DNA of 64,000 nt, taken from a bacterium. GTDB taxonomy: Bacteria; Planctomycetota; Planctomycetia; Planctomycetales; Planctomycetaceae. The translations under genes and the position numbers were made by a program. The DNA lies in contig WGMU01000023.1 of the NCBI GenBank assembly GCA_016124895.1, forward strand, positions 1 through 64,000, in the 5' to 3' direction. Shown piece after piece: positions 28,550 through 55,918 of this stretch. The notes below the pieces were generated by a model, which was given only the letters and a program-made list of their open reading frames with translations, made no database searches and was not told where the DNA came from. How positions within the stretch are numbered: the stretch's first letter is position 1; every line of letters begins with the position of its first letter.

Positions 28550-28764
28550 GAACTGGCCACCATTCGTCAATGCTTCGCTCCGCAACACGGTTCAGGTCCA
28601 GTTGCGTCCCACCTGCTTTCCCGCCCGGAGCGATTGGCCATTATCCGTAGAGAAAGTCGCGCAGCCTTTCGGCAGCGACGTCGATCCGAAACTCTCCACG
28701 AATGTCGCGACGACCACAGATTCTGGAAAGCCGCTCTACTCACCCAACCAAAGGAACCCCTCCG

Positions 28765-29706
28765 ATGCGCTTCTGCCACTCGATCTGCCTGCTGACTGTC
28801 CTGGCCGCCAGCCCGCTGTTTGCTGCTGGAGAAAAAGCTTACACAACCGTCGAAGAAGCCGGACCAGACTACCTGCTGCAGGGGGAGTACGCTGGCGAGA
28901 AGTTCGGCGTTCAGGTCATCGCACTTGGCGATGGCAAATTCGACGCCGTCGTCCTGACGGGCGGCCTGCCTGGAGCGGGCTGGGATAAGCAGGGCCGCAC
29001 CGTCATCAACGGCGAAACGAAAGATGGCGGCGTTGCCTTCTCAAAAGACGGCCACTCGCTGACGCTGACCGACGGCCAGATCAACGGCAACCTCGGTGAC
29101 GCCCGCGTCTCGGCAAAAAAGATCGAACGCAAGTCGCCGACACTCGGCGCGAAGCCGGTAGCAGGTGCGATCGTTCTGTTCGACGGTTCCAGCACGGACG
29201 AATGGAAAGAAGGCAGAATCGTCGAGGACAAACTGCTCGGCGTTGCCGCTCGAACGAAGCGCGAGTTTCGTGACTTCCACCTGCACCTCGAATTCCGCAC
29301 GCCCTTCATGCCGAAGTCACGCGGTCAGTCGCGCGGCAACAGCGGCATGTACCTGCTCGATCAGTACGAGTGTCAGGTGCTCGATTCGTTCGGTCTGGAA
29401 GGCCTCGATAACGAGTGCGGCGGCATCTACAAAATCGCCCGCCCCGACCTGAATATGTGCCTGCCACCGTTGACCTGGCAGACGTACGACGTCGACTTCA
29501 AAGCCGCACGCTTCGATGAAGATGGCAACAAAACGAGCCCCGCGGTCACGACGATCAAACTGAACGGCGTCGCCATTCACAGCAATCTGGAACTGCCCAA
29601 AGCAACGCCCGGCGGCGGACGCAGCGACGAGAAAGCCGGCGGCCTGTTCCTGCAGAACCACGGCGACCCGGTCGTTTATCGCAACATCTGGATCGTCGAG
29701 AAATAA
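28765..29706 (+). CDS. DUF1080 protein (3-keto-disaccharide hydrolase family)
   Basis: A 313-residue exported protein: signal peptide MRFCHSICLLTVLAASPLFA, then an N-terminal part of about 130 residues (YAGEKFGVQVIALGDGKFDA) not typical of the core. The DUF1080 jelly-roll domain begins at IVLFDGSSTDEWKEG and continues with REFRDFHLHLEFRTPF, RGNSGMYLLDQYECQVLDSF and AGGLFLQNHGDPVVYRNIWI. Some members cleave 3-keto-glycosides in bacterial sugar degradation; many planctomycete members have no known substrate. The start has AAGGAACCCCTCCG before the ATG. It lies in a small sugar-related cluster with the sialidase-like gene. Confidence 0.88.
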   Translation: MRFCHSICLLTVLAASPLFAAGEKAYTTVEEAGPDYLLQGEYAGEKFGVQVIALGDGKFDAVVLTGGLPGAGWDKQGRTVINGETKDGGVAFSKDGHSLTLTDGQINGNLGDARVSAKKIERKSPTLGAKPVAGAIVLFDGSSTDEWKEGRIVEDKLLGVAARTKREFRDFHLHLEFRTPFMPKSRGQSRGNSGMYLLDQYECQVLDSFGLEGLDNECGGIYKIARPDLNMCLPPLTWQTYDVDFKAARFDEDGNKTSPAVTTIKLNGVAIHSNLELPKATPGGGRSDEKAGGLFLQNHGDPVVYRNIWIVEK

Positions 29707-29763: not shown

Positions 29764-30921
29764 TCAGGAATCACGCCCCGGCAGAAAGCCGACGGTTGAT
29801 TCCAGAATGCGATGACGAGCGGACTCGGTCGACGCTTCGGCCGAGTTCAGCTCGTTCGTCAGGTCGTCGAGGTTCGCTGAGCAGAACCGGCAACCGAGTT
29901 CGCTCGTGTGAAAAGCGACGTACCGATCCCACTCGTCGGTCAGCGCGCCCAGCACGAACTTCCCCAGCGTCGACCGCTTCGGACACGTTGGTCGAGTCGA
30001 CTCCCAGACGCGCGTCAGTAGTTCGTCGGATGGAGAGCCGCTGCGATCCGGCACCGCATCGTCGCTCTCTGCCGCTTCAACGCGGCTTGCGACGCGGCGC
30101 AGAAACCGGTGCTTCAACACGGCGACCGCGGTTTCCTCAAGTTTAACCAGCGCCGCAATCTCACAGTTACGTCGCCCGGCGAAGAACAGCAGATCGAAGA
30201 CGACCAGATCGCGAAATTTCTGCTGGGTTTTCAGTTGTCCGGTGACTGCTGCAACCGCCGCGGCCAGCGTCTGCAGATCAGCCGCGTCCTGTTCGGCGCG
30301 CCGTACGTACCAGCTCGGCGACTGAGCCGCTGGCTGGTCGAGTTCGCTCGCCTCAATGTCCGCACCGGAACCGCCTCCGGTCACCAGCGTCACTTCGCGG
30401 CGGCTTCCGAGCCGTCGATATTGATCCGCAATCCGCCGCCGCAGGATCTGAAACAGCCAGGTCTCCAGACTGGCTTCGCCGCGAAAACCGCTCAACGACT
30501 TCAACAGACTGACGAAGGTTTCCTGCACGGCGTCTTCGGCATCGGATTCCTGCCTGAGCTGCGTTCGGGCAAACGCCAGCAGACGACCGTGATACTCGGC
30601 GACGAGCTGCGACCACGCCTGCGCATCTCCACCACGAATTGCCTTGATCAAGGGTTCAGAGCAGGTCGGTTCGACTGGCACACATTGCTCTCCAGCAGGC
30701 TCGCTCATCGGCCCATTAGATTCGTTGATTGAAAAGCCGCCATCGCAGGGATCAGGAACCAGCGGCTCGTCAAAGTCCGACAGTAAATCAGCGACGGCTC
30801 GACATTGAGCACACTCTGCCAGATGCCGTGCGATGGTCGCTGTCCCGGCTGCCGACGCAACCCTTCCACGCAGAATCGTGGCGAGCAGTTCGCCATCGGG
30901 ACATGGAAGAGGGATCGCCAT
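29764..30921 (-). CDS. ECF-type sigma factor with N- and C-terminal zinc-finger motifs
   Basis: A 385-residue protein, about twice the usual ECF length. Residues 33-40 (HLAECAQC) form an H-x3-C-x2-C motif like the zinc site of anti-sigma factors. Sigma region 2 lies at about 100-170 (LAFARTQLRQESDAEDAVQE then TWLFQILRRRIADQYRR). Region 4 is at about 240-285 (LFFAGRRNCEIAALVKLEET), ending RFLRRV. The C-terminus has a second site, His338-x5-Cys344-x2-Cys347, after TCPKRSTLGKFVLGAL; this tail resembles a domain common in planctomycete regulators. The gene starts 20 bp after the stop of the DUF4129-type gene, so it is probably the last gene of a three-gene operon. Zinc-finger ends may make the sigma redox- or metal-responsive or mediate autoinhibition; this is inference. 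Confidence 0.85.
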   Translation of the reverse strand: MAIPLPCPDGELLATILRGRVASAAGTATIARHLAECAQCRAVADLLSDFDEPLVPDPCDGGFSINESNGPMSEPAGEQCVPVEPTCSEPLIKAIRGGDAQAWSQLVAEYHGRLLAFARTQLRQESDAEDAVQETFVSLLKSLSGFRGEASLETWLFQILRRRIADQYRRLGSRREVTLVTGGGSGADIEASELDQPAAQSPSWYVRRAEQDAADLQTLAAAVAAVTGQLKTQQKFRDLVVFDLLFFAGRRNCEIAALVKLEETAVAVLKHRFLRRVASRVEAAESDDAVPDRSGSPSDELLTRVWESTRPTCPKRSTLGKFVLGALTDEWDRYVAFHTSELGCRFCSANLDDLTNELNSAEASTESARHRILESTVGFLPGRDS

Positions 30922-30941
30922 CGGAATTCTTCATCAGGTTG

Positions 30942-32906
30942 TCAGGAAGCCTGCCCCAGTTTTCGCCACAGCTTTTCCAGCAACGCCAGATTATCCGGCT
31001 GAGCGCGATACCCGGCGTAAGCAACGCGGGCGTAAAGCTGGCTGAGGTCGTTCGCTTCCGCCGCAAACGGCAGCCTGCGTGTCTGGAGTTGCTGGCCGTA
31101 CTCCATCGGTGTCTGATCCGGCGACCGCGGGCAGCCATGCTCGAAGCCCCACGCCTGCAGGGCCTCAAACGTATATCGCACCAGTTCCGACGGCGAGTGC
31201 TTCGCCGCCGCTCCTGACGCAAACGGATTTTGAAACGCAGCGAACGGCCGCGGCGGAGGTTCGGGCTCGGCGGTTTCTTCAACGGTCGAAGTTGCCGGCG
31301 TCCGGCGCCCAAACAGACCGAGCAGCTCGCTCCACAGCCGCGTGAAAAAGTTCGCGATCGAATCACGATAGACATACAGCAGCCAGAGCGACGCGATCGC
31401 CAGCAGGCCGTACATCACCCACTTGAAGAGACCACCGATCGAGCTGAAGACGGACGTCAGATCTGGAGTGCTGGTCTCCGGCGTCTGCGGAGTATCCATC
31501 CCGGCCGAGTCGCTCTCCGAGTCACCTGCCGCGTCCTGCGACTCCTGATTCTGCGCGACCTGGTCGTTTCCCGACTGCTGCGACTGCTCGCCGCTCTCCT
31601 GCTGCTGGCCGCTCTGCTGCGAGCCATCCTGTTGCTGCGACTGCTGACCGTTTTGCGACTGGTCTCCCTGCTGACCGCTTTGCTGTTGCTGGCCACCCTC
31701 GTTCTGCTGATTACTCTGCTGCTGCGACTGGCCGTCCTGTCTGGACTGCTGAGAATTTGCCGACTGCTGCTGCTGAGACTGCCCCGAAGACTGACCGTCT
31801 CCCGGCGACTGCGAATCCGGCTGCCCCTGATCGGTCTGTTGAGCGTTGTCATCGCTCAGATTGCCCTGCTGCTGCCCGCCGGCCTGTCCCTGCTGATCCT
31901 GAGCTTCGGCCGCACCCTGTTCGGCTTCGTGCGACGCCGGCCCGGAATGCTGACCGTCGCCCTCTCCGCCTTCGTCATTCAGAAACGCGACGTCGGCTGC
32001 TTCCTGCAGTTCGTCGCCGGCTCGATCGATCAGGTCAACCAGCGAGTAGTCGCTCTGCGGACGCGGGATCAGCAGCGCCACGATCAGAATGCCAATCGCA
32101 ATCGTTGCTCCCATTCCGACCCAGGTCGCAGCCATCGTTGTCGGCATCTGCAGTTGCCGCTGTCGCAGGTAGCGTCGCAGCCCGAGAAAACTCGTCAGCA
32201 GCAGCAGCCCGAGTCCCGCCGCCACATAAATCAGCAGCAGCTTGAACGCCGCATCCCGCGATGCCGCGCGGCCTGCGGGAATCATCGTCTGCCCGAAACC
32301 GAAGATCGGCAACGCGGCCAGAGAGAAGTAAACAACCCACAACCCCGGAGCGTGCGGTCGGCCTTCCCGCTCGCCCACGTTCAAAAACAGCCGCTTCCAC
32401 AGCGGCGTACGCTGGCCGTCGCTGTCTGCCGCGGCGCCCCGCTGCTCCGATTCACCGGTCTCTGACGACTGCGTCAAATCCGCGCCGTCGTCGACGCCAG
32501 CCACCTGCAGCAGGCCCTCGCCCGACGCGTCTTCGGACTCGTCGATCAGAGTGCAGTCCCAGGTCAGCTTGTCGGTACACCACCAGATGACGGCGAGACA
32601 CGCGATCGGCAACCACGGAGAATCTGGCACGAATCTGAAGATCGCCAGCGCCGTCGCTCCCGCCAGACCCGCAGTAAACAGGCCCGACTGAGCCCGACCG
32701 CTTTCGATCGCGATCCGTGAAATCAGCACCATGCCGAACACGAACCAGAACAGAATCCACCGCACTCGGCTTTCGTAAGTGACGCTCCCCGAAAACAGTT
32801 CGAGTAGAAAAAACACGAGACTGCCGACCAGCAGCATGATCAGCACCGGCGTCACCGCGATCGCCAGATAGTCAGCCAGCGTTTTGTCGAGTCGCTTGCG
32901 AGCCAT
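30942..32906 (-). CDS. DUF4129-type membrane protein with a Gln/Ser/Gly-rich tract
   Basis: A 654-residue protein. Four transmembrane segments lie in the first 115 residues (YLAIAVTPVLIMLLVGSLVF, WILFWFVFGMVLISRI and two more). Three follow at about 190-285, then a 140-residue low-complexity stretch of Gln, Ser, Gly and Asp (about 335-475), one more membrane helix (WVMYGLLAIASLWLLYVYRD) and a C-terminal domain of DUF4129 type (LVRYTFEALQAWGFEHGC, QTPMEYGQQL, LYARVAYAGYR). DUF4129 proteins usually accompany transglutaminase and MoxR/DUF58 genes in envelope clusters. ATG start without a visible Shine-Dalgarno; an in-frame TTG lies two codons upstream. It is 137 bp downstream of the large coiled-coil gene and 20 bp upstream of the sigma gene, same strand. 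Confidence 0.75.
   Translation of the reverse strand: MARKRLDKTLADYLAIAVTPVLIMLLVGSLVFFLLELFSGSVTYESRVRWILFWFVFGMVLISRIAIESGRAQSGLFTAGLAGATALAIFRFVPDSPWLPIACLAVIWWCTDKLTWDCTLIDESEDASGEGLLQVAGVDDGADLTQSSETGESEQRGAAADSDGQRTPLWKRLFLNVGEREGRPHAPGLWVVYFSLAALPIFGFGQTMIPAGRAASRDAAFKLLLIYVAAGLGLLLLTSFLGLRRYLRQRQLQMPTTMAATWVGMGATIAIGILIVALLIPRPQSDYSLVDLIDRAGDELQEAADVAFLNDEGGEGDGQHSGPASHEAEQGAAEAQDQQGQAGGQQQGNLSDDNAQQTDQGQPDSQSPGDGQSSGQSQQQQSANSQQSRQDGQSQQQSNQQNEGGQQQQSGQQGDQSQNGQQSQQQDGSQQSGQQQESGEQSQQSGNDQVAQNQESQDAAGDSESDSAGMDTPQTPETSTPDLTSVFSSIGGLFKWVMYGLLAIASLWLLYVYRDSIANFFTRLWSELLGLFGRRTPATSTVEETAEPEPPPRPFAAFQNPFASGAAAKHSPSELVRYTFEALQAWGFEHGCPRSPDQTPMEYGQQLQTRRLPFAAEANDLSQLYARVAYAGYRAQPDNLALLEKLWRKLGQAS
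31505..31905. repeat. Coding low-complexity tract (CAG/CTG-rich)
   Basis: About 400 bp dominated on the plus strand by CTGCTG, CTGACC and CTGCGACTG units, encoding QQSGQQGDQSQNGQQSQQQD-like sequence in the DUF4129-type protein. Such DNA is prone to slippage, so length variation between strains is likely. It is part of the gene, not a separate element. Confidence 0.7.
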
Positions 32907-33042
32907 GGGCAATCAGAGGCAGGAAACAGGGAACAGCGAACACGGAACTGAAGAGGGCAGACAGACAGAACAGTCACGCGGGAATTCAGACGACGACCGA
33001 ACCCGGAACGGCAAAGCCACCAACGAACACAGAGAACCAGAC

Positions 33043-36000
33043 TCAACGATTGTTTCCGGGCCGCTGCCCGCTGCTCGCTGCTCCCTGCTTGCCTTCTTCT
33101 GCCGCAACCTGCTCGAAGTAAAGCTTAATGATCTCGGCGTACTCGCCGTTTGTCTTGCGGTCCGACGACTGCAGAATTTCGGTCCGCAGCGTAACCGGCA
33201 GACGGCCCCAGTCGCGCATGACCTGCTGGCGAAGCTGCAGTTCGAGCGGAGACTCGGCCTCCTCGAAGCCCGCTGCTCCCGTGCCGTCACTGCCGAGTTC
33301 CGAAGCAAGCTGCGAATTCTCACCGTTGCTCATCCCGCGTCCCGGTTCTCCCTGAGCCAGGCCGTTCTGCGGAGCGAACTGCTGCGACGCTCCGGAGAGC
33401 AAACCGGCGGCCTGCGCCAGCGCCTGTGCCGCGCGCCGCAACGATTCCGCAGCCGGCGACGCTTGCTGACCGGCGGGACCACCCGCGGATGGATCGCCCG
33501 CCGAACCGCTCGATGACTCGCTCTTCTGACCCGACTGGCTCGATGAATTCGCGTTCGACGCTTCGCCTGGCTGTCCTGGTGACGACTCTGAGCCGCCCGG
33601 TTTTCCGTTAGTCGCGGCACTGTTTGCGGCGGGGTCGTTCTGATTCGACGCGGCAGATGGCGAACTCGACTGCTGACCCGACTGACCTGACTCCGCGCTA
33701 CCCGGACTTGAAGCCGCCGCTTCACCGGGTGTCGGCTGTCCTGACTGATTTGCCGTCGGACTGCCCGATGCTGGCTGTCCGTTCGCACTCGATGGCTGCG
33801 CGGCGACGATTGCGTCGCCAAGCTGCTGCTGTGCCTGCAGCAACTGCTGCGCGGCCGCGACGACCTGAGCTGCCAGTTCGCCAGGCACGTCGTTTGACGG
33901 GGTATCACCAGCCGGATTTCCCGAAATAGTCGGACTGCCTGGCGTCGGTTGTTCCTGCGAACTCGCGCTGCCGCTTGATGCCTCCGCACCGCCCACTGGC
34001 TGACCGGACTGATCAGTCGGCTGACCGGACCCACTCGCTGACTGCCCTGCATCGCTGGCTGGAGGCTGTCTGGTCTGACTGTCCGACTGCTGTCCGGTCG
34101 CGCTTGAGGCTGCCTCGCGCAGTGACTCGGCCGACTGTTGAGCGGCCTGCGCGGCTGCGTCGGGCGAACCGTTCTGCAGATTCTCCACGGCCTGACCTGC
34201 GGTCTGAGTTGCCGACTGCGTCGCCTGCTGAGCTGTCGCGGCGTTCTGCCCGGGCTCGTTCAACCCGAGCGGCTCAGCACCGAGTGACTCGGACAATTCG
34301 CCGAGCAGTTCGGCAAGCTGGGAAGCAGCATCGGCAATCTGCTGCTGCTGAGCCTGCCGGGCGGCCGAACGTCGCGGCTCGGAATTCTGCAGTGCCTCGA
34401 ACTCTCGCGCCAGTTCACGCTGCCCGGAGGCAACGTCTTCCGCCCGGCTGGCGAGAGCCGGCTGCTCATTCGCCAGTGCTTCCTGAGCCTGCTGCGCCGC
34501 GTCGGCCGCCTGCTGAGCCTGCCTTGCCGCCTCGGCAAACCGGCCTCCTTCCGCCTGCTGCTGCGACTGCAGAGCTGACAGCGCCGAATCGAGTGCCGAC
34601 GTTGCCGCGGGTGACTCTCTACCCTGCGACTCCGCCGCTGCGAGACCGACTTCCGCCGCTTCCGCCGCCAGTTCCCGCTGGCGTTGAATCAGCTCGTCGA
34701 ACGACGGTGCCTGTTCAGCTTCCCCGACCTGAGCGGAACTTTCTCCCGCGATTTTCGGAGACGATGCGTTCGACGCATCAGCCGCCTGCTGAGTATCACC
34801 TGCTGTTTGCAGGTTCGTCGCCGGGTTCTCTTCCGTCAGCGCCTGAGCGAGCAACCCTTCGCGATCGGCAAGCTGACTCGCCTGTTGTGCAAGTCGGCTC
34901 AGACGTTCGAGTTGCTGATCCCGCGCGGCGTCAAGAACTTCAGGGCATTCTGCAAGCAACGAGTTCAGGTAGTCCGCCAGCTCGCGGTACTCCCCTTGTA
35001 ACTGCTGCTGCGCCGCTGCGAGTTCGTTTTGTGCGGCAGCCAGACGCTCTGTCTCAGCGGTTTGGCCTTCGTTTGAATCCGAATCGTTCGAATCTGAGTT
35101 TGACTTTGCTGCCTGCTGTGCCGCGTCAAGTTCCGCGCGCAGCTCACTGAGCCGCTCGGCATCGTCTGCCAGTCGCCCGGCCCGTTCGGCGATCCGATTC
35201 AGTTCGAGCAGGTCCTGCTCCAGTTCAGCGAGCCGATCAAAACGCGATTCCAGTTCCCGAAGCTGTTCGGCCGCGAGGTCCGTTGCGTCACCGTTCTGCT
35301 TGAGCGTCTTGGCCTGCTGCTGCGCTGGCGCGTCGCGAGCTTCCAGCAGACGATCGGCAAGCGGAGCCAGTTCGTTGCCCGCCGTCCGCTCAGCCGTTGC
35401 CGCCACTTTGTCGAACAGCGGCCGTTCTCGAAGCTGCTCAGCCAGCTTCTGCAACCGATCGGTCAGCTCGGCTTCGCGCCGCGCCAGCTCATCGAGCTTC
35501 TCTGCTCCGGCCAACGGTTTGTCCGACTCTGCAGCTTCAGTCGCCTGCTTCTGCAACTCGTCGCTCGCTACCGTCGCCTGCTGCAGTCCTTCGCGGATCG
35601 CCTGCAACTCGGCATGGAGCTGCTTCTGCTGCGCGAGCAGGTCGTTCGTGCCCGGCGCGTCTCCGGTATCGGATACGGCGACGTACCGGACCGCCGACCA
35701 GACTTCATTGGGCCGCGGCACCGGCCGGCCATCGGCCGCTCGCGCCTGCAGCCGCAGAATCGTTCCCGCTTGAACGCCGAGCTTCGCCAGATCGACCCGG
35801 AAGCGATGCGTCAGCGTTCGCTTCCCGAGTTCCTCTGTCGGTACTGTCTGCACAACGTCGAGCCCCTCGCGTGACGAAATGCGAAGTTCGAGTTGCTCGA
35901 CGCCGACGTCGTCACTCACTGCCAGCTCAAACGGATAAACGTCCGACGGCCGGGCCGTGTCCTGCTGCCCGCCGGCCACTTCGAGTTGCGGCGGCTGGTC

Positions 36001-37311
36001 GCGTTCGATCTTCAGATGTCGGAACGGCTCATCCGGATTCAGCAACCCGTGCGGGTCGGCGAGCCGAAACGCGAGTGTGCCCTGGACCGTCGCGGTCGAT
36101 TCGAGTGATGCCGATCGACGGTCGTCCGACAACGTCAGCGGCACACGCGGTAATTCGTCAACGGCGGTCAACTCGTTACGAAACCCACCGACGTGGCGCT
36201 CAATTGATTCGCGGTTCGCTGCGTCATCGATCGCGGCGCGATCCTCTTTGGGAATGATCAGCGGCCCCAGCCATTCGACTTCCGCCGACTCGACCGGCTT
36301 GTTGAATGTCAGCTTGAACCGCAACTGGCTGTGCTCGAATGCCGCCATCTCGCCGGTCACGCCATCGAAGGATTGCCGTGGCAGACCGACATACGCCGGC
36401 GGCGTGACTTCCAGCGACGCGGTCACGATCTGTGGAGCGTCTTCAACGGTAACTGCCACTGACTGCGACCGCGTTCGAGCGGCAGCAATCCGAAACTGAA
36501 AACTCTCCTGAGCATCCGGGACGACGGCGACAAACGCGTTGGCATCAGCATCAAACCGCAACTCGCGCCGATCCACCTGCCCCGCGGCGTTCTCCCAGAC
36601 CAGCGTTACCGGCTCGGGGATCGGATCATCGCTTTTGTCCCGCCATGTGATCGACGCCGCGATCGATACGTCGGTTCCGCGGGCAACGACGCAATCCCCT
36701 GGAGTGATCTCAAACGTCAATGGACCGGCAGATGCGTAATTGCCCCACGGATTGAAGAGCCTCGCGACAAGCAGTCGCGACGGGTCGGGAAACAGCAACC
36801 AGCAGAACAGGCACGCCGCAACGGCGAACATTCCGGTCACCGTACATCGGACGGCGCGGCCCGACGCAACCGCATCGAGCAGATCATTGCGCCGGACGCC
36901 CCGAACGGTTTCCCGTTGCAGCATCTCACGCATCAGTGCCGAACCACGTTCCGATTCCGGAAGCCGTTCGTCGGAGAGTTCAACCAGTGACGTCAAACGC
37001 TCCCGCAGTTCCGGAAATCGACGCTCTGCCAGCGCCGCGATTTCTTCATCAGGAAGCCGCCGTAAAAACGGTCGCACAACGCCGAAAACGCTGACCACTC
37101 CACACAGCAGAACCAGACCACTCAGCAGGAGCGAACGCGTCGACGCTTCAAAGTCGAATAGAAAATCGGACACGGTGACAGCCAGCAGGGCACTGGTTCC
37201 AATCAGCAGCAGTCGGCCGAACCCGCGCAGTGCCACCGTCCGCCGCAGATGAGCCCGTAACTCATCCAGTTGCTGCTGCACTTCCGCCGGAAGTTCCAGA
37301 ACCTGCTCCAT
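33043..37311 (-). CDS. Large membrane-anchored coiled-coil protein, DUF4175-like
   Basis: A 1422-residue protein. Two N-terminal membrane helices (LLLIGTSALLAVTVSDFLF and LLLSGLVLLCGVVSVFGVV) are followed by an intervening charged segment with RRFPELRERLTSLVELSDE. A third helix is VTGMFAVAACLFCWLLF. Ig-like beta segments follow (PLTFEITPGDCVVARGTDVS, LEVTPPAYVGLPRQSFDG), then several hundred residues of Gln/Glu/Ala coiled coil (LLAQQKQLHAELQAIREGL onward). The last 500 residues are Ala/Gln/Ser/Gly/Pro low complexity, ending in a folded tail with WGRLPVTLRTEILQSSDRKT. The pattern fits the DUF4175-like giant proteins of planctomycete envelope operons; no enzymatic motif is seen. The start ATG follows GGGGAGGGCGT. 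It is the first gene of the leftward operon with the DUF4129-type and sigma genes. Confidence 0.72.
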   Translation of the reverse strand: MEQVLELPAEVQQQLDELRAHLRRTVALRGFGRLLLIGTSALLAVTVSDFLFDFEASTRSLLLSGLVLLCGVVSVFGVVRPFLRRLPDEEIAALAERRFPELRERLTSLVELSDERLPESERGSALMREMLQRETVRGVRRNDLLDAVASGRAVRCTVTGMFAVAACLFCWLLFPDPSRLLVARLFNPWGNYASAGPLTFEITPGDCVVARGTDVSIAASITWRDKSDDPIPEPVTLVWENAAGQVDRRELRFDADANAFVAVVPDAQESFQFRIAAARTRSQSVAVTVEDAPQIVTASLEVTPPAYVGLPRQSFDGVTGEMAAFEHSQLRFKLTFNKPVESAEVEWLGPLIIPKEDRAAIDDAANRESIERHVGGFRNELTAVDELPRVPLTLSDDRRSASLESTATVQGTLAFRLADPHGLLNPDEPFRHLKIERDQPPQLEVAGGQQDTARPSDVYPFELAVSDDVGVEQLELRISSREGLDVVQTVPTEELGKRTLTHRFRVDLAKLGVQAGTILRLQARAADGRPVPRPNEVWSAVRYVAVSDTGDAPGTNDLLAQQKQLHAELQAIREGLQQATVASDELQKQATEAAESDKPLAGAEKLDELARREAELTDRLQKLAEQLRERPLFDKVAATAERTAGNELAPLADRLLEARDAPAQQQAKTLKQNGDATDLAAEQLRELESRFDRLAELEQDLLELNRIAERAGRLADDAERLSELRAELDAAQQAAKSNSDSNDSDSNEGQTAETERLAAAQNELAAAQQQLQGEYRELADYLNSLLAECPEVLDAARDQQLERLSRLAQQASQLADREGLLAQALTEENPATNLQTAGDTQQAADASNASSPKIAGESSAQVGEAEQAPSFDELIQRQRELAAEAAEVGLAAAESQGRESPAATSALDSALSALQSQQQAEGGRFAEAARQAQQAADAAQQAQEALANEQPALASRAEDVASGQRELAREFEALQNSEPRRSAARQAQQQQIADAASQLAELLGELSESLGAEPLGLNEPGQNAATAQQATQSATQTAGQAVENLQNGSPDAAAQAAQQSAESLREAASSATGQQSDSQTRQPPASDAGQSASGSGQPTDQSGQPVGGAEASSGSASSQEQPTPGSPTISGNPAGDTPSNDVPGELAAQVVAAAQQLLQAQQQLGDAIVAAQPSSANGQPASGSPTANQSGQPTPGEAAASSPGSAESGQSGQQSSSPSAASNQNDPAANSAATNGKPGGSESSPGQPGEASNANSSSQSGQKSESSSGSAGDPSAGGPAGQQASPAAESLRRAAQALAQAAGLLSGASQQFAPQNGLAQGEPGRGMSNGENSQLASELGSDGTGAAGFEEAESPLELQLRQQVMRDWGRLPVTLRTEILQSSDRKTNGEYAEIIKLYFEQVAAEEGKQGAASSGQRPGNNR

Positions 37312-37561: not shown

Positions 37562-40500
37562 TCAGATCAGCAGAGCATCAAAGTCGAACGAGAAGGCATC
37601 ATCAATGACGTCCCCTGTCCCGGCCAGAATCACATCACCAGCCGTCGCGGTTGTCCCGTTGCCGCCTCCCGCAAGATTGTCGCGTCCACCCTGACCTTTG
37701 ATCAGATCGTCGCCATCTTCACCGAGAATGAGATCGCGACCTGCTCCGCCGAACAGGAAATCGTTGCCGGCGGACCCCAGCAGAGTATCGTCATCGGCAT
37801 TGCCGATCAGTCGATCGATTCCCGCTCCGCCACGCACCGCATCCGCACCCGCACCCGCGTAGACGATGTCGTTGCCGTCGCGTCCGTCGACAATGTCGTT
37901 GCCATCGCCTGCGAAGATCACGTCGGCCCCCAGGCCGCCCAGGATCGTGTCGTCACCGCCCAAAGCATAAACAAACAGTCGACCTGTATAGTCGCCGCCG
38001 TTGAAGTGATCCGCTCCGTCACTGAGAGTGACTTCGATCCGCTCAACGCGATTATGAATATCGGTTTCTGCCCCGTGCGAAATGCTGCCGGCATTGACCG
38101 TTACAGTGGTGCCGGACGCGATGACGAGCATGACGTCGCCAGTCGCTCCCTGGCCGTCGATGTCGTCGTTGCCCAGACCGCCAGCCATCGTGTCGACGCC
38201 GGCTCCGCCAAGTATGCGGTCATTACCGTCATCACCGTTGAGCTGATCGTCGCCGGCATTGCCGATCAGCAGGTCGTTCCCGACGCCGCCGAACACAATG
38301 TCGTTGCCACTGCCGGCAGAAACGGAATCGTTTCCGCCAGTCACGATGCTCGTATTGCTGCTGTCGCCAAAGATCACGTCATTCAGCGCGGTACCCGTGA
38401 TGGAATCATTGCCGTCGCCGCCTTCGATCCGCACGCCGTACTGCGTAAAGCCGCTGGCATTGATATTGTCATCGCCGCTGCCGCCAATCAGAACGATACT
38501 CTCAATCCGGTTGAGCGTATTTGATCCCGTGTCCCAGGTGAGCAGGCCGTCGGTCAGAACGACGGTCCCGGTGACGTCTTCCTGAAGCACATCGAACGAC
38601 GTGCCGTTGCCGTCAACCACATTGTTGCCGGCGCCACCGCTGACCGTGTCGCGTCCAGCACCGCCGAGCACAACATCGTCTCCAGTACCCCCGCGGACGA
38701 TGTCGTCACCCGCGTTGCCAACGACCTGATCGTTTCCGGATCCGCCAGTCAGGGTGTCGTTGCCGTCGTCGCCGTTGATGATGGCGTTGGTACTGATTCC
38801 TGACAAATCGACGACGTCGGCGCCGGCTCCCGCGTTCACCGTCAGTGTGCCATTGAATGTACTGTCGAGGCCGGTTGCCTGCAGTGAATCGTTCCCATCA
38901 CCGAGATTGACCGTGACGGACGAACCCGAGGTTTCAAACGTGACCGACTCGCTCGTTCCCATGCTGGAAATCATTGAGACGCCATCGCCGTTGCTCGAAT
39001 CACTGATCAGAACGCTGTCGGCCGCCGGGCCGAAGTTAAAGACTCGGCTGGCTGCACTAAGGTTGTCAGCGATCGGCTCAAGACCCGTGTATGAGATTAT
39101 CTGGCCATCGACATCGATTGTCCCGGCGCTGCCACTCGTAAACGTGTGCGTGACGCTGGCAAAGGAAGCTGCACCTCCATCTTCGAGCACCAGCGTATCG
39201 ATGCCGGCACCGGAACCACCGTTATAGCTCAGGCCGCCCGCCGGCAGAGGGTTGCCCGTTGCAAAGTCAACGGTCAGCTTGTCGGAGCCACCAGTCTGCC
39301 CGATGAACGAGATGCTCGTGACGTTGGCAAACTCGTGAGCCGGTGCGCCTGGAATGTCAAATCCCGTCACCGAGTTCACAAATCGAACCTTTGTCCCGTC
39401 ACGCCGGACGGTGACATTCCCCGCGGCTGCAGCAAAGTCCGCCGCGTCGAAGGTGACCGCTTCGGCCTGGTCTGACAGATTGATCGTGACCGTCGCTTCC
39501 GAACTGCCCGGTGTGGCTGCGTCGTCGGTCGCTCGAACTGTCAACGTAAATGTCGGAGATGTCTCGAAGTCCAGAGCGGCTGGATTATTCACTGTGATAT
39601 TGCCGGAGTTGTCGATCGCAAACGCACTTGACGTATTCCCGGCAATGATCGCGAGCGAAACGTTGTCCATGTTGGGATCGCTGACGGATACAGTGCCGAC
39701 CAGCGTGCCCGATCCCGAGTTTTCAGCAACGGACAGAGTGCCACCGGTGATAACTGGCGCCGCGTTAATGGAAATTGTTACGGTCACCGTGTTGCCAACG
39801 GCGTTCAATTCTCCACTGGTGTCCTTAACGGTGTACTGGAATGAATCCGACGTGGCCGTCGTCATCGCGTCCGGTGTGTAAGTGAACTGTCCCGTCACGA
39901 AGTCCATATTGACCATGCCATGCGTTGGCAGGCTGACGAGCGGATTGACGACGGCGAGCGCCGGACCGTCGACATCCGTGTCATTGGTCAGCACGTTGCC
40001 TGTCACTGAACCGCCCACCAGAACCGAGAAACTGTCGGGGACGGCAACCGGCGTATCGTTTACGCCGCTGACTGAAATCATCAACGTGTCGGTGTCCGTT
40101 TTTGCGCCACCGCTGCCGTTCTGGCCGAGATCGTTCGACGTGACCGTCAGCGTGTCGTTGCCGGAGAAGTCTGGAGCTGGCGTATAATCGAGCCCGTCGA
40201 GCGCGGCGTTGATATCGGCCAGTGTTCCACGGAACGTCATCGAGGCGTTGCCGCTCCCCGTGCCTGCCCCCGTCCCGTTGGCATCGCTGAATGAGAAACT
40301 GAGTCCCGACGTGCCGTTCAGCGACAGCGTGCCGTGATTGACACTTAACATAACCTGCACGAGTTGTGCGGTCAGGACATCGACATCCGAAACAGAAATC
40401 AGGTTTGAGTTACCGGTGCTGAACACCAGCGGCCCCATCGGAGCGTCTTCTTCAACTGACGCAGTGGCCATCTGCAGCGAGTTGACCGGCGCGTCGTTGA

Positions 40501-43500
40501 CCGCCGACACGCTAATCGCGATAGCACCGGAAGCCGTTTTCGCTCCACCGCTGCCCGTATTCCCGAGGTCGTTGACAGAGACAGTCAGCGACTCCGCGCC
40601 GGCCGAACTGTTGTAGTTCGCAGTCGGAATGTACCGCAGGCCGCTGAGTGCGACGTTGACCGCATTGACCGTCCCGCGGAACGTCATTGCTGCATCAGCG
40701 GTTCCGTCTCCAGCACTCGTTCCGTTGACGTCGCTGAACGAGAAACTCAATCCGGACGTCGTGCTCAGCGTCAACGCTCCGTGACTGACTCCCAGCGAAA
40801 CCTGTACCTGACCACCCATCGTCTCAGATACATCAACGTCGGAGACTGTAATGGAGTTTCCGTTTACCGCCGCGAAGACCAGCGTCGCGTCTTCGTTAAT
40901 CGACTGAGTCGTAGGCAGGCCCAGGGCCGGGGCGTCGTTGACTGGAGTGACGGTAATGGCGACGTTCTGTGACGTCATCATTGGTCCGCCGTTTCCTGTG
41001 CTGCCCTGGTCATCCAGCATGACGGCCAGATTGTCCATGCCGACGTAACCTGGATCCGGCGTATAGATCATTCCGTCGAGGGCCAGATTGACTGCTGTCT
41101 GACCTCCACTGAATGTCATCGTCCGATCGCCAATGCCGTCACCGGTCGAGAAGACCAGCCCGGTCGTTCGGAACAGTTGCAGCGTTCCGTGATCAACAGT
41201 CAGCGTGACCAGCAGCTTGCCGGATCCGAGGTCGACATCATTCACGGCGACCCGGTTGCCATTTGCTGCGCTGATTGTGACATCCGTATCTTCCGCAACA
41301 GTCAGTGGTCCCTGCGTTGTGACGACCGGAGGATCGTTCTCTGGCGTGACCGTAATCCCGACAATGTCGATGTCGCTGAGCGGCGCGTTATTGGGAGCGA
41401 CGCCCGAGTTTCCGAGATCGTTGGTATTAATCTGAATCTGAGCCGGTCCGGCGAAGTTCATCACCGGCGTAAAGGTCAGGCCTTCCAGTGCTGTATTGAT
41501 GTTTCCGAGCGTGCCGCGGAACGTCATGGCTGCATCGGCAAAACCATCGCCCTGAGGGCCACCCTGACCATCCGGAGTAAAGGCAAAGTCCACCAGGGCC
41601 GGATTTCCAAGCGTCAGCACACCATTCGTCGACGTCAGGGTCACTTGGACCACGCCTCCACCAGCGTCCAGGTCCGTAACAGTGATCGCGTTGCCGTTGC
41701 CCGTTGAGAAGATCAACGGATTGTCTTCCGCAACCGTCTGCGCGCCCGGCACAACATTCACTGGAGCATCGTTGTTGCCATCGATCTGAATGGTCACCGT
41801 CGAATTCACAATGCCGTCCGTTGCCGCGGTCATACCAGGCAGGCCGACGTTACCCAGGTCGTTCAGTTCAATGTCCAGTGACCGATTCTGACCGTCGACA
41901 CCAGCCGGCGGCGTATAAATCAGCCCGTTCAGAGCTGCATTGATGTCCGTTTTTGTTCCACGGAACGTCATCGTGACATCGTCAACACCGTCACCTGTTC
42001 CCGTTCCGTCAGCGTCGGAGAATACGAAGTTCAGACCAACCGTCGTTGCAAGTGTCAAAGTTCCGTCACCGTCAGTCAGGTTCAGCGTCAACTGATACAT
42101 GTACATGCCCGCTCCCGTCCCGGTCGGGTCGTCCAGCAGGTCACTGACCGTGATCCCGTTCCCAGCGGATGGCGAAAACGTCAATGGCGTGTCTTCCACA
42201 GCCTGAACGAGCGTTGGTGCATTGATCTGCGGATCGTCGTTCACGTCGTTGACCGTGAGCGCGATCGTACCAGTCGCCGTCTTGCTGCCGCCTGCTCCCT
42301 GATGGCCAAGATCGTTTACGGTGATTGTCAGCGTGTCCGCGCCGAAGAAGTTCGCATTTGGAGTATAGACCAGTCCATCCAGTGCGGCGTTGATATCGGC
42401 CACGTCGCCACGGAACGTCATCGTTGCGTCGGCCGTCCCGTCACCGGTTCCGACACCGTCAGGGTCCATGACAAAGCTGAAGTCCAGTCCGGAAATCCCG
42501 GAAAGAGTCAGCGACCCGCTGTTGACGGTGAGTGTGACCTGGAATGTGTCTCCCACGCCGGGCACCGGATCGAGCGGCGAGTCACCGACCGAGAACTCAT
42601 TCGCTGGCATGTTCATGCTGCTGAAGGTCAGCGTCGTGTCCTCGCTGACGAACTCCTGAGCATCGGGGTCACCGAGGTTGACCGGGGGTGGCATAATCGG
42701 ATTCGCGAACGTGATCACAGGGGCGTCGTTGACTTCCCGGACGTTGATCTCAAACAGTTCGCTGTCCATCAGCGTTCCGCCGGAACCTGTTCGTCCGCCA
42801 TCGTTCACGTCGACCTGAACTGTCCCGAACGGTCCCGCCATCGCGTCCGGAGTGACGAACATCATATCCGGTCGGAAGATCATGCCGTCGAGTGCGGCGT
42901 TGATGTCAGCGACAAGGCCGTCGAACGTCACTGTCGTTGAACCGTCCGCTCCAGCCGTGATGTTCAGGTTGGCTGTCGACGAGAGAATAATCACGCCATT
43001 CGTGGCGGTCAGGGTGACTTCCAGTTTCCCGGAGTCCACCGTCATATCCTCAGCGGTATCGACATCGCTCACACTGATCAGACTACCGTTCGCGTTGTCA
43101 AAGACAAAGTTCTGTCGTTCGAGACCGTCGAACTCGGGCCCGGCGACGGCCATGAATTCCGAGCCGTTGAGGCTGACCACCGGCGCGTCATTCACCGGAT
43201 CAATCGTGATCGTTGTCGTAGACATGCTGGTCAGTGGCGAACCAGCTCCCGTGTTGCCCTGGTCATCGACGGTCAGCGTGAGCGTTGCAGTCCCATTGAA
43301 ATTCAGATTGCTCATTCCCGGACCGTACGGGTGATAAAGCAGTCCGGTCAGAGCTGCGTTGATATTCGCGACCGTACCGGTAAATGAAATTGACGCTTCG
43401 TCGGCGCCTGTTTCCATGTTCTGGAACGTCAGGCCGGTCGTCTGTGAAAGCGTCAGCGTACCCTGATCGACGCTGATCGTGACCAGCATGTCTCCGAGAT

Positions 43501-46500
43501 CGCCATCCACCGCGTCTGAGACACTCACCGTATTGGTAAAGTCGAAGTCGATATCTTCCGTTGCGGTTACCGCCATCGGTGAGGTCGCCACCGGGGCACT
43601 GTTGACCGGTGTGACAACAATCAGGACTGAATCTGTATCGAGCATCTCTGTTGGCGGTACTTCCGAACCAAAGTTGCCCAGGTCGCTGGTCGTAATCGTC
43701 AGTCCGGCGTTGCCATTGAAGTTGAGCGTCGGGACAAAGACGAGGCCGTCCAGTGCGGTATTCAGAGCAGTGATGGTCCCACGGAACGTCATTACGACAT
43801 CGTCGACACCATCTCCCTGCGGCGAGCCGTAGCTGTCAGTGGCGAACGCAAAGTCGACCAGCGCCGGATTGGACAGCGAGATTGTCCCGTTTGAAGCCGT
43901 CAGTGTGATCTGCAGTTCGTTGGTGCTGATGAATGCATCTGGATCGTCAACCGTAATGGCGTTTCCGTTCGCCGAAGAGAAAGTCACGGACGTCGGAACG
44001 GCTGCAGTATTCTCCGGGACACTCTGGCTGGATGGCACCGTATTGACGGGAGGGTCGTTAGCCCCATTGGTCACCAGCAGACTGAACAGGATTGTTCCGT
44101 CCAGTTGGTTCCCCAGCAGTTCGTTTCCGGCGAGGTCCCTGATCCCGGACGTGGTCGAATTGTCGACAGTCAGTGTGTAACGGGCGTCCTGCGGGAACGT
44201 CGTCACCGACGTCAGAATTGCCTCATTGGTATTGGAGTTATACGCAAACACATAGTCAGTCCCTTCCACAAGCGTAGTGGTACCGGTTCGAAGTGTCTGC
44301 GTGAGCACGAACTGTGAGCCGGTCGGATCGACGGTTGCGTCATCGATGCCGATGCCCAGGTCTGTCAGCCTCACGATGATCTGATTGAAGAATGAGGGCT
44401 GATCGATATGCACGACCGTATCGGTCGGATCAAGATCGTCGGTTCCGTTGTCTTCCGGAACCACCAGCACAGCCATTCCGCGAATGAAGTCCACACGGTC
44501 GATGGCACCACGGTCTTTTACAATGTTGGAGCCCAGGCCGGGGAACGAGTTCTGGCTCGGGTCATCATCGCGAAGCTGGCCGTAAAGGTCGAGTCGCGGC
44601 GCGACCACTTCTGAATCCGGAATCCCCAGGGGCGACAGCACGGCGCTGATTGCCGTTCGTTCGCCGAGCGTGTTCAGCGAGCTATCGATCGCCGGGCTGC
44701 CGGCTTCCAGGTAGAAGTTAAACGTAGTCGGATCGACAAACAGGGGATCGCCCGGATTGAGGACGATCGATTTATTTCCCTGACGGCCGAGCGCGCCGTT
44801 GTTGGAAAACAGCGTTGTTTGAACGACCGTCAGCGGTTGTCCCTGCCCGTCGTTACCGGCCGACGATGCTGCCACCGGAATGGCCGTATTTGTATTCACA
44901 ATAATATTGTTGATCAGCGTCGGCGCCACATTGTTGTCGACTTCGATTCCGAACGCCGCCCGGCTCGCACCGCCGTAGATAGTGTTGTTAACAACCTTGA
45001 CAACCGGAATCGCGGCCTGCGGCAGTGCCCCACCGGCGGTTACCTCACCCTGAATCGAAATGCCCCCGTTACCGACTTCAGCCACGACATTATTGGCGAT
45101 AAACAGGCCCGTCACCAGATTGTCGTTGTTGAGCGTTGGCGTTGCTCGCGGTGCTCCGTACTGTGAGACGTTAGTGCCAGCGTTTCGTGCGCCGGGGCTG
45201 ACCTGAATTCCGACATCTCCGACATTGCGGATCAGGTTGTTCTCGATGATCACGACGCCCTGCTGGCGATGCAGGTTGGTATCGCCACGGCTTCGTGTGT
45301 TGCCTTCCAGGTCGATCGGATTTTCCTGATCGTAGGCGTCAATCGTGACGACGTCGGGCCGGCCGACCTCAAGGTCGATCTGATAGAATCCTGTATCTCC
45401 AGGAGCGTAGGTTGTCGGATCCACGCCGGGATCGACGGCTGGGTCGTAGTACCGGTTGGGAGTCTGCGGCAGCATCGAGACGCCGGGGTTCCCGCCGCTG
45501 ACAGCGATCAGATAAGTGTCCGTCGCTGGAGCGTTGAAGATCAGGAACGGCCCCTGATCTGAGAACAGATCGTTCAAGGACTGGCCGTTATCTGCACTGG
45601 CAAGTTCCGTCAGCGTCGACAGATCGAAAATACGAAGGAACAGATCGATGCCGAAGGTGCTGATGTCGACAACCAGACGGTCACCAGCGTTGAGCTGCAC
45701 CTGGTAGTAGTCGACTTCGATGTCACCGTTGCCACTGTCTCCCAGATTTGCGAAAGCTGTCCAGAAACCCGGCGAGTTGGTCGTCAGCGTGGTGTCGTAA
45801 GCGCCGGCCGGAGTATCTCCCGTATCGACCAGAACTCCGTCGTCGATCATGTTCTCGGCGATCGGCGTCAGCGTGCCTGTCACGTGTTGGGCATTCAGGA
45901 TATTGACCCGGTCGCCCTGAGTGTTGCCGGTGTAGGCTTCTGCGATGACATCGTGCATCCCGGACGCGTTGATCGCAGCAGCGAGTGCTGCAGCCACATC
46001 GGCTGCATCGGAATCGAGCGTGTACACAACCGGCGTGTTTGTACCCGAAACGCCGCCTCCATTAAGGTCAAACTCGAACGTGACGGTAATTGGTGATCCG
46101 TTGATGCTGACGCCAGCGTCGACGGTGATTGTGTCGCCGTCGTTTATATACGGCCCGTCGGCGGTAAAGATTGTCTGAGCCGGCGTCAGTCGATCGTTCG
46201 TATCGATCGTGCTGAAAATGAAGAGGTCCGGCAATGTCGGCATCACCGGATAGGCGAACTGCTCTCCACGCCGAATCTCAAGCTGGTATTCACCATTGAG
46301 CTGCTGCTGATCTCCAGCCGGATCCGGATCCTGCGGCACTGCGAAGAATGTCGAAACATTCGTTGTTGCCGGGAACGTCGCTACCTCGCCACGTTCGGCG
46401 AAGCCGACGATAATGTCATCGACGTAGAACCCTTCAAAGGCGTTGTTCTGGTCTTTTAATCGGTTGTTGAAGTTACCGAACGCGTCACCGTCGGCGGGGA

Positions 46501-49500
46501 CGTAGCTCGGGTTGTTCGGGTCACCACTGACACCGGACGTGCTGAAATCGAATCGCAGAATCAGATTCTTTTCACCGGCGTAGTCATTGAGATCGACGCG
46601 TGCCTGTCGCCAGGTGCCGGTGTTATCAAATAAATCCTGCACCTGTTGGTTCGGTTTGTCTGACGCCAGACGCGACGTTGACAGGAAGGCCGGCAGTTCG
46701 GCGTCCGGGGTATCGGGTGCTGACGGAGTCGAGTTGTTCGTCGCCAGCAGTTCCCAGGTCAGGCCGTTGTCGCGTGAGATTTCGACACGGGCGCTGTCCC
46801 GCATCAGGTTCGTTTTCGAAGCCGCACCTTCGGTTTCCAGGAAATAGTTGAAGTACAGCGTTGGCTTATCGGTACCTCGATATCCTTCCAGACTGAACGA
46901 GTTTGTCTGCAGACTTCCGTAGGCTCCGCCCGGCAGGTTGTAGTTATTACCGATCTGAGAACCGTTCGACGACCCGGCTGTCAGGTCGCGCTGCCACGTA
47001 CTGTTCAGCACACCAAGCTGCCCGGTCGAAGTCTGGTAGCCGATATAGGCATCATTCGTAATCGGCGAGTTGGTCCACTCTTCCAGACCGAAGTAGAAGC
47101 TGATGCCTCCCTGGCCTTCGTCAAGAGCCCGGCCATTGATTGCCAGTGTCTCGGCAGTCGGAGTACGGGTATTGTCATTAAATGCGTTGATCCCGTGGCC
47201 TGGATCGGTACCCCGAGTCTCGGTCGGATGCCACAGATTGATATCCAGCGGGCTGAACGCCAGGCCCGTGGCAAATGGCAGGAATGTCGTCAGCACGTCG
47301 GTATCGGCAACACCGTCACCATTGCTGTCAAAGATCTGCTTCAGCGTACCCGTCGCCGGATCGATGGCGACCAGCCGCCCGGAGGTCGAGATTGCAAACA
47401 GCAGATTGGCATAGGTCCCGTTCTCGACATTCTCGGGAGCATTCGCCAGACCGGCAAACCCTTCCGGGACCTGGGCAGAGAAATCGACAACGTTCGACGC
47501 CAGGAACGGCTGAATGCCGTTTCCATTGGAATTGTTTGGCGAGTTTCCTTCAGCAACCTGATAGAACTGTCCGCCCTCGCTCACTCCATAGAGGATGCCA
47601 TTGAAGAACTCCAGGCCACTGGTGATCGTCGTGATCGTCATGGCCATATCCTGGATGGTTCCGATTGCTCCGTTAGCATTCTGTGTGAACGAGGCGGAAC
47701 CCGTTGATGTCGCGCGATAGAGCTTCGAGACGCCTGGAGTGCTTCCTGAAATGTCGGCACTCCGCACGGCGTAGTAAACACGGTCATAGCTGGCAAAGTT
47801 GTTCCGGCGGAACACGACAGCATCGACCGTGCCGGCATTATTCTGCTGCTGAGTCGGACTGTTCACATTGACGCCGGGGATGCCGTCGGACTGCGATGTA
47901 ATCGCACCGGCAGTCCCGGTGTTCAATTCGATCAGAGTGCTTTCACTTCCGCCGTTGTTACCCGACCCGTTGACGCTGTAGAGACGCCCGTCACTGCGCA
48001 TGTCGAGGTCGCCGGTGTTGTTGCCGGGGTTTCCAACAAACGTCTCAAACCCGCCATTAAACGGGTCGATTGTGTATAAGCCGCCGCCAACGGACACGAA
48101 GAGTGTCACATCGCTGAGCGTGAACGGTTTTACGTTGGCCTGAAGAGTGATTTCGTCCGTGATGTCAAACAGTGGCAGGTCAGTCGTTGGGGTAACCGGG
48201 ACGCCATTCGAGGTGTAACCCGTGAAGCCGATATGGTCTTCGACGACACGATCGACTGAATTGACCGGTTCCAGGCGGGTCAACGGTGCCGCCGCGTTTG
48301 AGACGAAGTACTGATTCAAAACGGTCGGCAACTGGCCGTTGGACGCGACCGCAACGTAATACCGGGTCTCGGTTGACGGCGGTGTTTGTGAGACACCTTC
48401 CACTTCCGGCTGTGTCGTGGTCGCACCAGCGGGCAGCAGAACCGGACCGATGTAGGGGTCCAGTTTGCCGACCGTACCGCGGCTGAGATCGTTCAGGTCG
48501 TTGCCCTGGCCGGGCGCTGGCTGGTCGTCCGCGATGTCTGAATCGCGTCCGATATACAGCAACTGGCCGTTCACGTCGTAAACAGCAATCGTAGTGTCAG
48601 CACGACCAATTCCGTCGGCCCAGTCGAGATCGAAAATGGTGGCAAATGTCTTGCCGCCGTCACTGAAGCCGCCAATCGCCTGAACCTGCTCGAAGTCGAC
48701 GGTGAAGGTGTAGAAGTCAATATCGTCAGCCGCGCTCAGATTGCCAGCCACGGAAATCGTATTCTTATCCACGACCAGCAGATGACCGATATCCTGAGCC
48801 TGGTCGCGAGCCCCGTTCACCGTGGTGTCTTCGGCGGATTCGCCGAGCAGTGGTGAGTGGTCGGGCAGACCAACCAGATTCACACCAACGGTTGCGTAGC
48901 GAATCTCAGCTCCGCGGACCGTCGAGCCCGGTTTTTCGTCGACCTGGTTGACGCGGATCTGCATCTGATACCGGCCGCTCGTCTGACCACCTTCGCTGGT
49001 GACGCGTACGAAGTACGTTCCCAGAGCAGCCCCGGAACCATTCAGTACGACGCGCATGCCGGCGTCGAGGTAGTTACTGGTGTAGTAATCGCCACCCAGC
49101 CAGTCAGCTTTGGTCAGTGGATACTCGATGAGGAACGTTCCGGCATCATCACCGGTAACGTTGTTCGTAGCCCGCGCCAGGACGTTACCCAGCGAGTCGA
49201 TTACCTCAATCTGGGTATCCAGCGAGTCCGTCGTCCGGTCGATGTCCAGCCAGACTTCTGTCTGTCCCATGGCCTGGAAGCTGTAGACGTCGGTGTCACC
49301 GGGATCGTCGCCACTGATGAAGCCGTGTACTTCAAATCCGAGGCGTCGGTTTTCGTCGCCGCTGTTTTCGTTCGGGGCCAGCACTCCGAGAAACTGAGCT
49401 TTTGCCGGATTGTTGTTTTCTTCATTCCCGTTCGTTGCGACTGACTCTTCTTCAAGAATCGTCGCTACGTTGCGGTCATTGCTGTACTGGCGGAGTTCGA

Positions 49501-55186: not shown

Positions 55187-55918
55187 TTGGACAAGCCCCA
55201 CGAGTGAAATAGATTGCTGACGTCAGGAGTTCCGTCTGGAAGTCCACAGAAGCTGCGGCGGTGCAGCGTTGGTTTGCCCGAAGTGCGCGCGAGCAGAATG
55301 CGACACCCCTGCATTCTGATCCGCCTGCAACGGAAGCCTGGTCAGATTGCCCAGACCGCCGAGAAAGAGAACTCGCCACGGTAATGACTGCGCCAGCGGA
55401 CTGGCAACGTAAAAGGACTGGCTGGTTTCGATGTCCAGACTCAGACTGCGAGCGAACGGAAATCCTCTCAGTTCTGCTGCAGACAGGGCAGTGTGTCGAT
55501 TCCTCACCAGCGGTACACAACGTCCCGACTTGCGCCGGAACGCAACCCCATGAATGTGCCACCCGGAGGCGGACACTGCGGAGCAGTTGCAGGAAGTCAG
55601 ACAATGAATCATTGACAGGAAGGTCGAGTACTGACGGCTGTAACAACGGTCCGAAATAACCGTACCGGGAAATGGCTCAACATAGACTGCCTCGTCCAGT
55701 GACGTTGCCTGGTCGCTGCTGCCTGCAGGATCGGCAGCCGGCCATCACGCAGAAGAAGTCAAATCGACAACGGCAACCACTGCCGATTCTTTCCGGGAAA
55801 ATCCGGCAGTAGACGTCTGGCCGCGACAATCAGTTCCGTGGATTCCGCGACGTCGGTCGATTGAACCTGGTCGGCGTGTCTGCGGTTGTCTGCCGAGTGC
55901 TCGGCCTGTAACGGTTTG
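55187..55918. other. Intergenic region upstream of the giant gene
   Basis: 732 bp between the giant gene start and the end of the pseudouridine synthase gene. Short open frames on both strands overlap each other and match nothing known. It should contain the promoter and long leader of the giant gene. GTGGGGCTTGTCCA lies directly before the ATG. No terminator-like stem found for the upstream gene. Confidence 0.45.

Follow-up and report, generated by a model that had tools for sequence, protein, structure and literature searches.

The ECF48, ECF52, ECF53 and IutY (ECF243) proteins are extracytoplasmic function (ECF) sigma factors that are fused to an anti-sigma factor, with a zinc-finger domain in ECF48, ECF52 and ECF53. 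Their extensions contain one or two membrane helices, and proteolysis is believed to free these sigmas (PMC8999054). ECF sigmas that are linked to kinases usually have no anti-sigma factor, and the ECF43 group lacks the DAED motif (PMC8999054). We analyzed a stretch of 64,000 nucleotides from a bacterium of the family Planctomycetaceae (assembly GCA_016124895.1, contig WGMU01000023.1, positions 1 to 64,000), referred to here as the window. It contains three leftward genes, which encode two membrane proteins (genes 1 and 2) and an ECF sigma factor with a zinc site near each end (gene 3, the window sigma). An initial annotation of the window, made from its sequence alone, proposed that the sigma carries its own anti-sigma-like zinc sites, and that it is wired to the membrane proteins as an envelope-sensing unit. 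The first half of this proposal is borne out, in that the C-terminal module is a fused version of a protein resembling zf-HC2 domains and zinc-binding anti-sigma (ZAS) factors that related sigma genes have as a separate gene. We consider it fairly probable that gene 3 encodes an ECF sigma with its cognate ZAS-like zinc regulator fused to the C-terminus, and that the gene was displaced from a kinase cassette found throughout the planctomycete phylum. The analysis establishes the domain homology, the conservation of the zinc ligands, the linkage, the co-occurrence and the displacement; that the regulator binds and inhibits the sigma, and that phosphorylation or a redox change releases it, is inferred.

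The C-terminal zinc module

Gene 3 matches the Pfam families Sigma70_r2 (1.9e-16) and Sigma70_ECF (1.7e-6). It has the sigma2 and sigma4 regions, without sigma1 or sigma3, that characterize an ECF (group 4) sigma factor. In an AlphaFold2 model of the protein, pLDDT is approximately 90 or more over most of the core, and the core matches the structures of AlgU, SigE and SigW. The DAED motif in sigma2.2 is present. No hydrophobic or membrane segment occurs in the protein, including its C-terminal extension.

The zinc site in this extension has the ligands C313-x24-H338-x5-C344-x2-C347. All four ligands, with the Hx5Cx2C spacing, are kept in 120 of the 120 homologous loci examined. Between the two species of the window's genus (the window's genome, G000, and G001), no part of the sigma is more constrained than the C-terminal domain (dN 0.037, dS 0.657; for the core, dN 0.114, dS 0.956). 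Given this conservation and this constraint, the C-terminal zinc site is far beyond chance.

When the sigma was used as a query against 40 related genomes, most of them gave the core (residues ~85-290) and the C-terminal module (~300-381) as separate open reading frames (ORFs). In families f2 and f4-f7, the zinc gene is just downstream of the sigma gene. That the two parts are often neighbouring, separate ORFs in most relatives suggests a Rosetta-stone link between them. The standalone zinc protein has approximately 135 amino acids (aa), and its second half aligns to the C-terminus of the window sigma, including an invariant W, a C-P-x-R, an H and a C-x2-C. Proteins of the standalone type were found in 279 of the 298 genomes of the class, mostly in a single copy per genome. 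The window's genome has a fused copy only; G001 and G007 each have one fused and one separate copy.

The Pfam family zf-HC2 comprises putative zinc fingers that occur in anti-sigma factors. It matches 42 of 45 standalone zinc proteins at E-values up to 1 (best 5e-7), and the full window sigma gave no match to it in its own scan. We modelled the sigma and the zinc protein separately in AlphaFold2, because MAFFT misplaced fragments in a mixed sigma/zinc alignment. The model of the Blastopirellula marina zinc protein, based on a 45-row alignment, has two consecutive helical units (pLDDT 74, pTM 0.41). In a Foldseek search with this small model against 350,542 PDB chains, ChrR came first (probability 0.96), and ChrR and RslA chains accounted for 9 of the 13 matches, at E-values above 1. 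Together, the zf-HC2 matches and the Foldseek ranking favour a domain of the anti-sigma type.

In lineages outside the class, the zinc protein encoded behind the sigma (L210:5443-8044, L213:6040-7082) has two complete units, C...Hx3Cx2C followed by C...Hx5Cx2C. These are clear in G397 and G427, and a two-unit protein is also recognizable by pattern in G374 and G450. The ligands of the first unit are missing in all 80 loci tested within the class.

In some Pirellulaceae (L107, L110, L113, L121 and others), the zinc gene is detached and lies a few bases from a beta-ketoacyl-synthase-like gene on the same strand. At these loci, a gene for a small cold-shock-like protein is also close to the zinc gene, again on the same strand.

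The kinase cassette

We surveyed gene neighbourhoods in 80 named GTDB contigs that hold the zinc gene. One orthologous ECF gene is nearby in 50 of these contigs, nearly always directly upstream and on the same strand. In the pooled set, a membrane-protein gene is next upstream of the ECF gene at 46 loci, and a kinase gene is ahead of that at 48. Proteins of the cassette match the Pfam families Pkinase (~1e-42 to 1e-46) and FHA (4e-6). Several loci also have, farther upstream, genes for an FHA protein and for a small protein with a coiled coil. In the window's family, the separate-type cassette retains the sigma, and the zinc gene is located elsewhere. The window's genome has such a cassette, with a separate-type sigma, on contig C64 (L154:214-5823), but we did not find a separate zinc protein anywhere in this genome.

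Within the family, 7 of 170 genomes have the sigma-zinc fusion, namely the two of the window's genus (G000, G001), three of the genus g63 (G320, G322, G323), G007 and G094. The seven fused sigmas form one clade (support 100/100). In a set rooted with other ECFs as outgroup, they form a fused clade of ten rows together with G412, G426 and G418, which are from outside the class (support 93/81, or 98/91 for nine rows); one outgroup row, L197, is placed inside the family in this tree, so the outgroup is not clean. The fusion also occurs in other branches (G390, G393, G436).

In G007, G094, G412 and G418, the fused sigma ends a cassette that encodes a TPR-type protein, a kinase and a membrane protein. 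A kinase gene is upstream of the fused sigma in G426 too. The membrane protein of the G007 cassette is present in 8 of the 170 family genomes, which are all seven genomes with a fused sigma and G321, a metagenome-assembled genome (MAG) of genus g63 that is 59% complete. Counted by genus, the membrane protein and the fused sigma co-occur in 4 of 4 among 58 (P ~2e-6, with phylogeny ignored). The matching kinase is beside this membrane protein in every genome tested, with E < 1e-120 versus ~1e-85 for the next kinase.

In the window's genome, this cassette is on contig C136 (L230:4624-11525) and has no sigma gene. It encodes a coiled-coil protein of 271 aa, a TPR-type protein of 583 aa, a kinase of 924 aa and a membrane protein of 500 aa. 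Sigma-less cassettes likewise occur in G001, G320 and G323. The window's genome keeps two kinase/membrane cassettes, the one on C64 with a separate-type sigma and the sigma-less one on C136.

Because the cassette on C136 is without a sigma gene, and the fused sigma ends this cassette elsewhere, the window sigma is best seen, on the basis of gene order, as the displaced last gene of the kinase cassette. In planctomycete relatives, the sigma and zinc parts are encoded beside a kinase, whether in one gene or in two adjacent ones. Therefore, the likely partner of the window sigma is the kinase, and not the two neighbouring membrane proteins.

In order, the full cassette would encode a small coiled-coil protein that has a single membrane helix, a protein of the TPR or FHA type, a Ser/Thr kinase and a membrane protein, with the sigma and the zinc protein, whether fused or separate, at its end. 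We infer that the zinc domain folds onto sigma2 and sigma4, which would keep the sigma off RNA polymerase. A membrane-linked kinase signal, in which the sigma or the zinc domain would be phosphorylated, might lift this self-inhibition; loss of zinc or oxidation of thiols might have the same effect. In the window's genus, the sigma gene has left the cassette and stands behind two unrelated envelope genes, where it has gained an additional N-terminal zf-HC2 unit.

Alternative explanations

Several points weigh against a kinase-linked sigma with a built-in anti-sigma domain. No kinase gene adjoins the sigma in the window. The Foldseek matches of the zinc-protein model have E-values above 1, so this result is a ranking and not proof, and a sequence search of PDB with the zinc profile gave no relevant chain. 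The class I anti-sigma signature is Hx3Cx2C, and the Hx5Cx2C of the C-terminal site is two residues longer (PMC7406223). When tested for this signature, the N-terminal unit fits and the C-terminal unit does not; we therefore call the C-terminal domain ZAS-like, rather than ZAS. In the AlphaFold2 model of the whole sigma, the zinc domain has a pLDDT of approximately 40-75, and its docking is not reliable. Because the DAED motif is kept, the mechanism of the sigma must differ at least in part from that of the kinase-activated ECF43, in which the kinase makes up for the missing charge (PMC8999054). It is also conceivable that the zinc domain activates the sigma rather than inhibiting it. In this case, it would serve as an activating or metal-sensing extension, as the cysteine-rich domain does in CorE, or have a structural role. 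We regard this as unlikely, but it deserves serious consideration, since CorE-type C-terminal extensions are required for activity (PMC8999054), the C-terminal domain is the most conserved part of the protein, and in many Pirellulaceae the sigma gene and the standalone zinc gene are far apart. However, four spaced ligands and a likeness to zf-HC2 and to ChrR and RslA set the domain apart from a Cys-rich domain, and the separate zinc protein is encoded right behind the sigma, which is the usual position of an anti-sigma gene. The strict co-occurrence with the kinase cassette, and the FHA protein in its separate-gene form, would also fit a zinc domain that acts as a docking platform between the sigma and either the kinase or the FHA protein, with phosphorylation as the sole regulation. 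This is improbable given that the domain resembles anti-sigma domains. Moreover, the acidic DAED-type motif for core RNA polymerase is already present in the fused sigmas and does not have to be created by phosphorylation.

Our preferred reading, in which the partner is the kinase cassette from which the sigma was displaced, also has to be compared with the second half of the initial annotation's proposal, that genes 1 and 2 sense the envelope and control the sigma via its zinc sites. The three genes are on one strand with short gaps, and the other species of the genus shares their arrangement. However, a survey of the conservation of the trio, which the annotation itself had recommended, found that the adjacency is restricted to these two species (G000, G001) and missing in the other five genomes with a fused sigma. 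In G007, the homologues of the three genes are on three contigs (C5, C74, C186) with other neighbours, and in the g63 genomes (G320, G322, G323) the fused sigma is flanked by unrelated genes. Elsewhere, gene 2 is a member of MoxR-DUF58 operons, with homologues behind MoxR and DUF58 genes in G002, G009, G019, G028 and G037. Gene 2 stands apart in the window's genus, and MoxR and DUF58 genes are not adjacent to it in the window. The family of gene 1 is multicopy, and its neighbours differ from locus to locus. By contrast, the fused sigma co-occurs with a different membrane protein and with a Ser/Thr kinase. Because the trio is adjacent only in two species of one genus, an outcome that the annotation itself had named as refuting, wiring of the sigma to the membrane pair is unsupported, and we reject the idea that the trio forms a conserved unit for envelope sensing. 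We found no evidence for regulation of the window sigma by gene 1 or gene 2, and we consider control by this pair very improbable.

The N-terminal zinc unit

The N-terminal site has the ligands C7-x25-H33-x3-C37-x2-C40, with the classical Hx3Cx2C spacing. In G001, this unit is an ORF of its own with 60 codons, whose TGA is three bases ahead of the GTG start of the sigma, and the unit alone is over the zf-HC2 cut-off (6.3e-5). Between the two species of the genus, it has dN 0.245 and dS 1.31, indicating purifying selection. The unit thus looks translated and constrained, although less so than the core or the C-terminal unit. The region upstream of the sigma showed no unit of this type in G007, G094, G320, G322 or G323, and we found it only in the window's genus.

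The two zinc sites differ in their distribution: the C-terminal site is phylum-wide, and the N-terminal site is genus-specific. The initial annotation had named H33, C37, C40, H338, C344 and C347 correctly, and overlooked the fourth ligands, C7 and C313.

Based on the two genomes compared, the N-terminal arrangement could stem either from a split in G001 or from a fusion in the window's species. Alternatively, the G001 MAG might contain a sequencing error at this point. A GTG codon within gene 3, at residue 81 (Table 1), is a possible second start, which would produce a form of the sigma without the N-terminal zinc unit.

Genes of the window

All three leftward ORFs were found as initially annotated (Table 1). 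The intergenic gaps are 136 base pairs (bp) between genes 1 and 2, where 137 bp had been given, and 20 bp between genes 2 and 3, as given. Genes 1 and 2 both have membrane helices predicted in a Kyte-Doolittle scan, and coiled-coil or Gln-rich tracts. Gene 1 has three such helices near its N-terminus, and the rest of the protein is long, coiled-coil and rich in Gln and Ser. Its match to DUF4175 is weak (0.0065, 15 bits versus a cut-off of 27). The length of gene 1 is counted from an ATG, and an upstream GTG at 37452 is a possible start. Gene 2, which is likewise counted from an ATG, has six predicted helices, a Gln-rich tract with 54 Q within residues 319-470, and a DUF4129 match over the curated Pfam cut-off (3.5e-10). 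MoxR-DUF58-DUF4129 operons with homologues of gene 2 occur in several families (L054, L056, L058, L059, L061).

Table 1 Features of the sigma gene and the two neighbouring genes in the window
Feature	Position	Strand	Basis
Gene 1: 1422-aa membrane protein, weakly DUF4175-like	33043..37311	-	ORF, Pfam, Kyte-Doolittle scan
Gene 2: 654-aa membrane protein, Gln-rich loop and C-terminal DUF4129	30942..32906	-	ORF, Pfam, Kyte-Doolittle scan
Gene 3: 385-aa ECF sigma of the kinase-cassette family, zinc module at each terminus	29764..30921	-	
N-terminal zf-HC2-type unit, residues 5-48, ligands C7, H33, C37, C40	30778..30909	-	
GTG codon within gene 3 (residue 81), GGAGAG ahead of it, coinciding in position with the G001 sigma start codon	30679..30681	-	
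ECF core, sigma2 and sigma4, residues 89-287, DAED motif kept	30061..30657	-	Pfam, AlphaFold2
C-terminal ZAS-like zinc domain, residues 297-385, fused form of the standalone ~135-aa zinc protein	29767..30033	-	

Gene 1 is immediately preceded by an ORF of 5879 aa that has the same orientation (37562-55201, minus strand). It has repeated segments that look cadherin/Ig-like, and GGxGxD repeats at its C-terminus that look calcium-binding. This ORF is not upstream of gene 1 in G001. On the sigma side, a gene for a secreted-looking protein (28702-29706, plus strand) is convergent with the sigma gene. G001 has this gene at the corresponding position (L052:275-1216), which extends the synteny between the two species past the trio on this side.

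Comparison with known systems

The family might represent a widespread stress cassette of Planctomycetota, in which one ECF is under both a Ser/Thr kinase and a ZAS-like domain, the latter separate or built-in. Such a sigma would be kinase-gated and possibly sensitive to thiols or zinc. We advance this only tentatively. In the literature surveyed, we found no description of a kinase and a ZAS-like partner acting on one ECF for the kinase-linked ECF groups, and no paper on this family. The sigma/zinc family is near-universal in its class and mostly single-copy, and has both a kinase and a ZAS-like partner. Because it occurs in fused and unfused forms, it provides natural constructs for testing a kinase and an anti-sigma domain on one sigma. 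It also illustrates that adjacency in a single window can suggest the wrong partner, and that co-occurrence across genomes finds a better one.

The module resembles the ZAS proteins ChrR, RsrA and RslA in being a small zf-HC2-type domain that is linked to an ECF sigma and has a four-ligand C...H..C..C site. As known here from sequence and models, it differs from them in the Hx5Cx2C of its C-terminal unit, in its location within the sigma's own chain, and in the Ser/Thr kinase of the cassette. Like ECF48, ECF52, ECF53 and IutY, the window sigma has a sigma core followed by a C-terminal anti-sigma-like extension. By contrast with them, it has no membrane helix and is kinase-linked. CorE and CorE2 (ECF238) share with it a metal-binding C-terminal extension of an ECF sigma, but the window sigma has a single four-ligand zf-HC2-type site instead of a Cys-rich domain or a CXC motif in the linker. 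As for the neighbouring genes, the third gene of the MoxR-DUF58-DUF4129 envelope operon is a homologue of gene 2, although neither a MoxR nor a DUF58 gene adjoins it in the window.

The ECF gene of the window sigma's relatives is conserved beside a Ser/Thr kinase gene, as in the EcfP/PknT and EcfK/PknS pairs of ECF43 and in ECF59 and ECF60. Unlike ECF43, the sigma described here keeps the acidic motif. It also has a ZAS-like partner, whereas an anti-sigma factor is usually missing in the kinase-linked groups, and the kinase in the window's genome is encoded on another contig.

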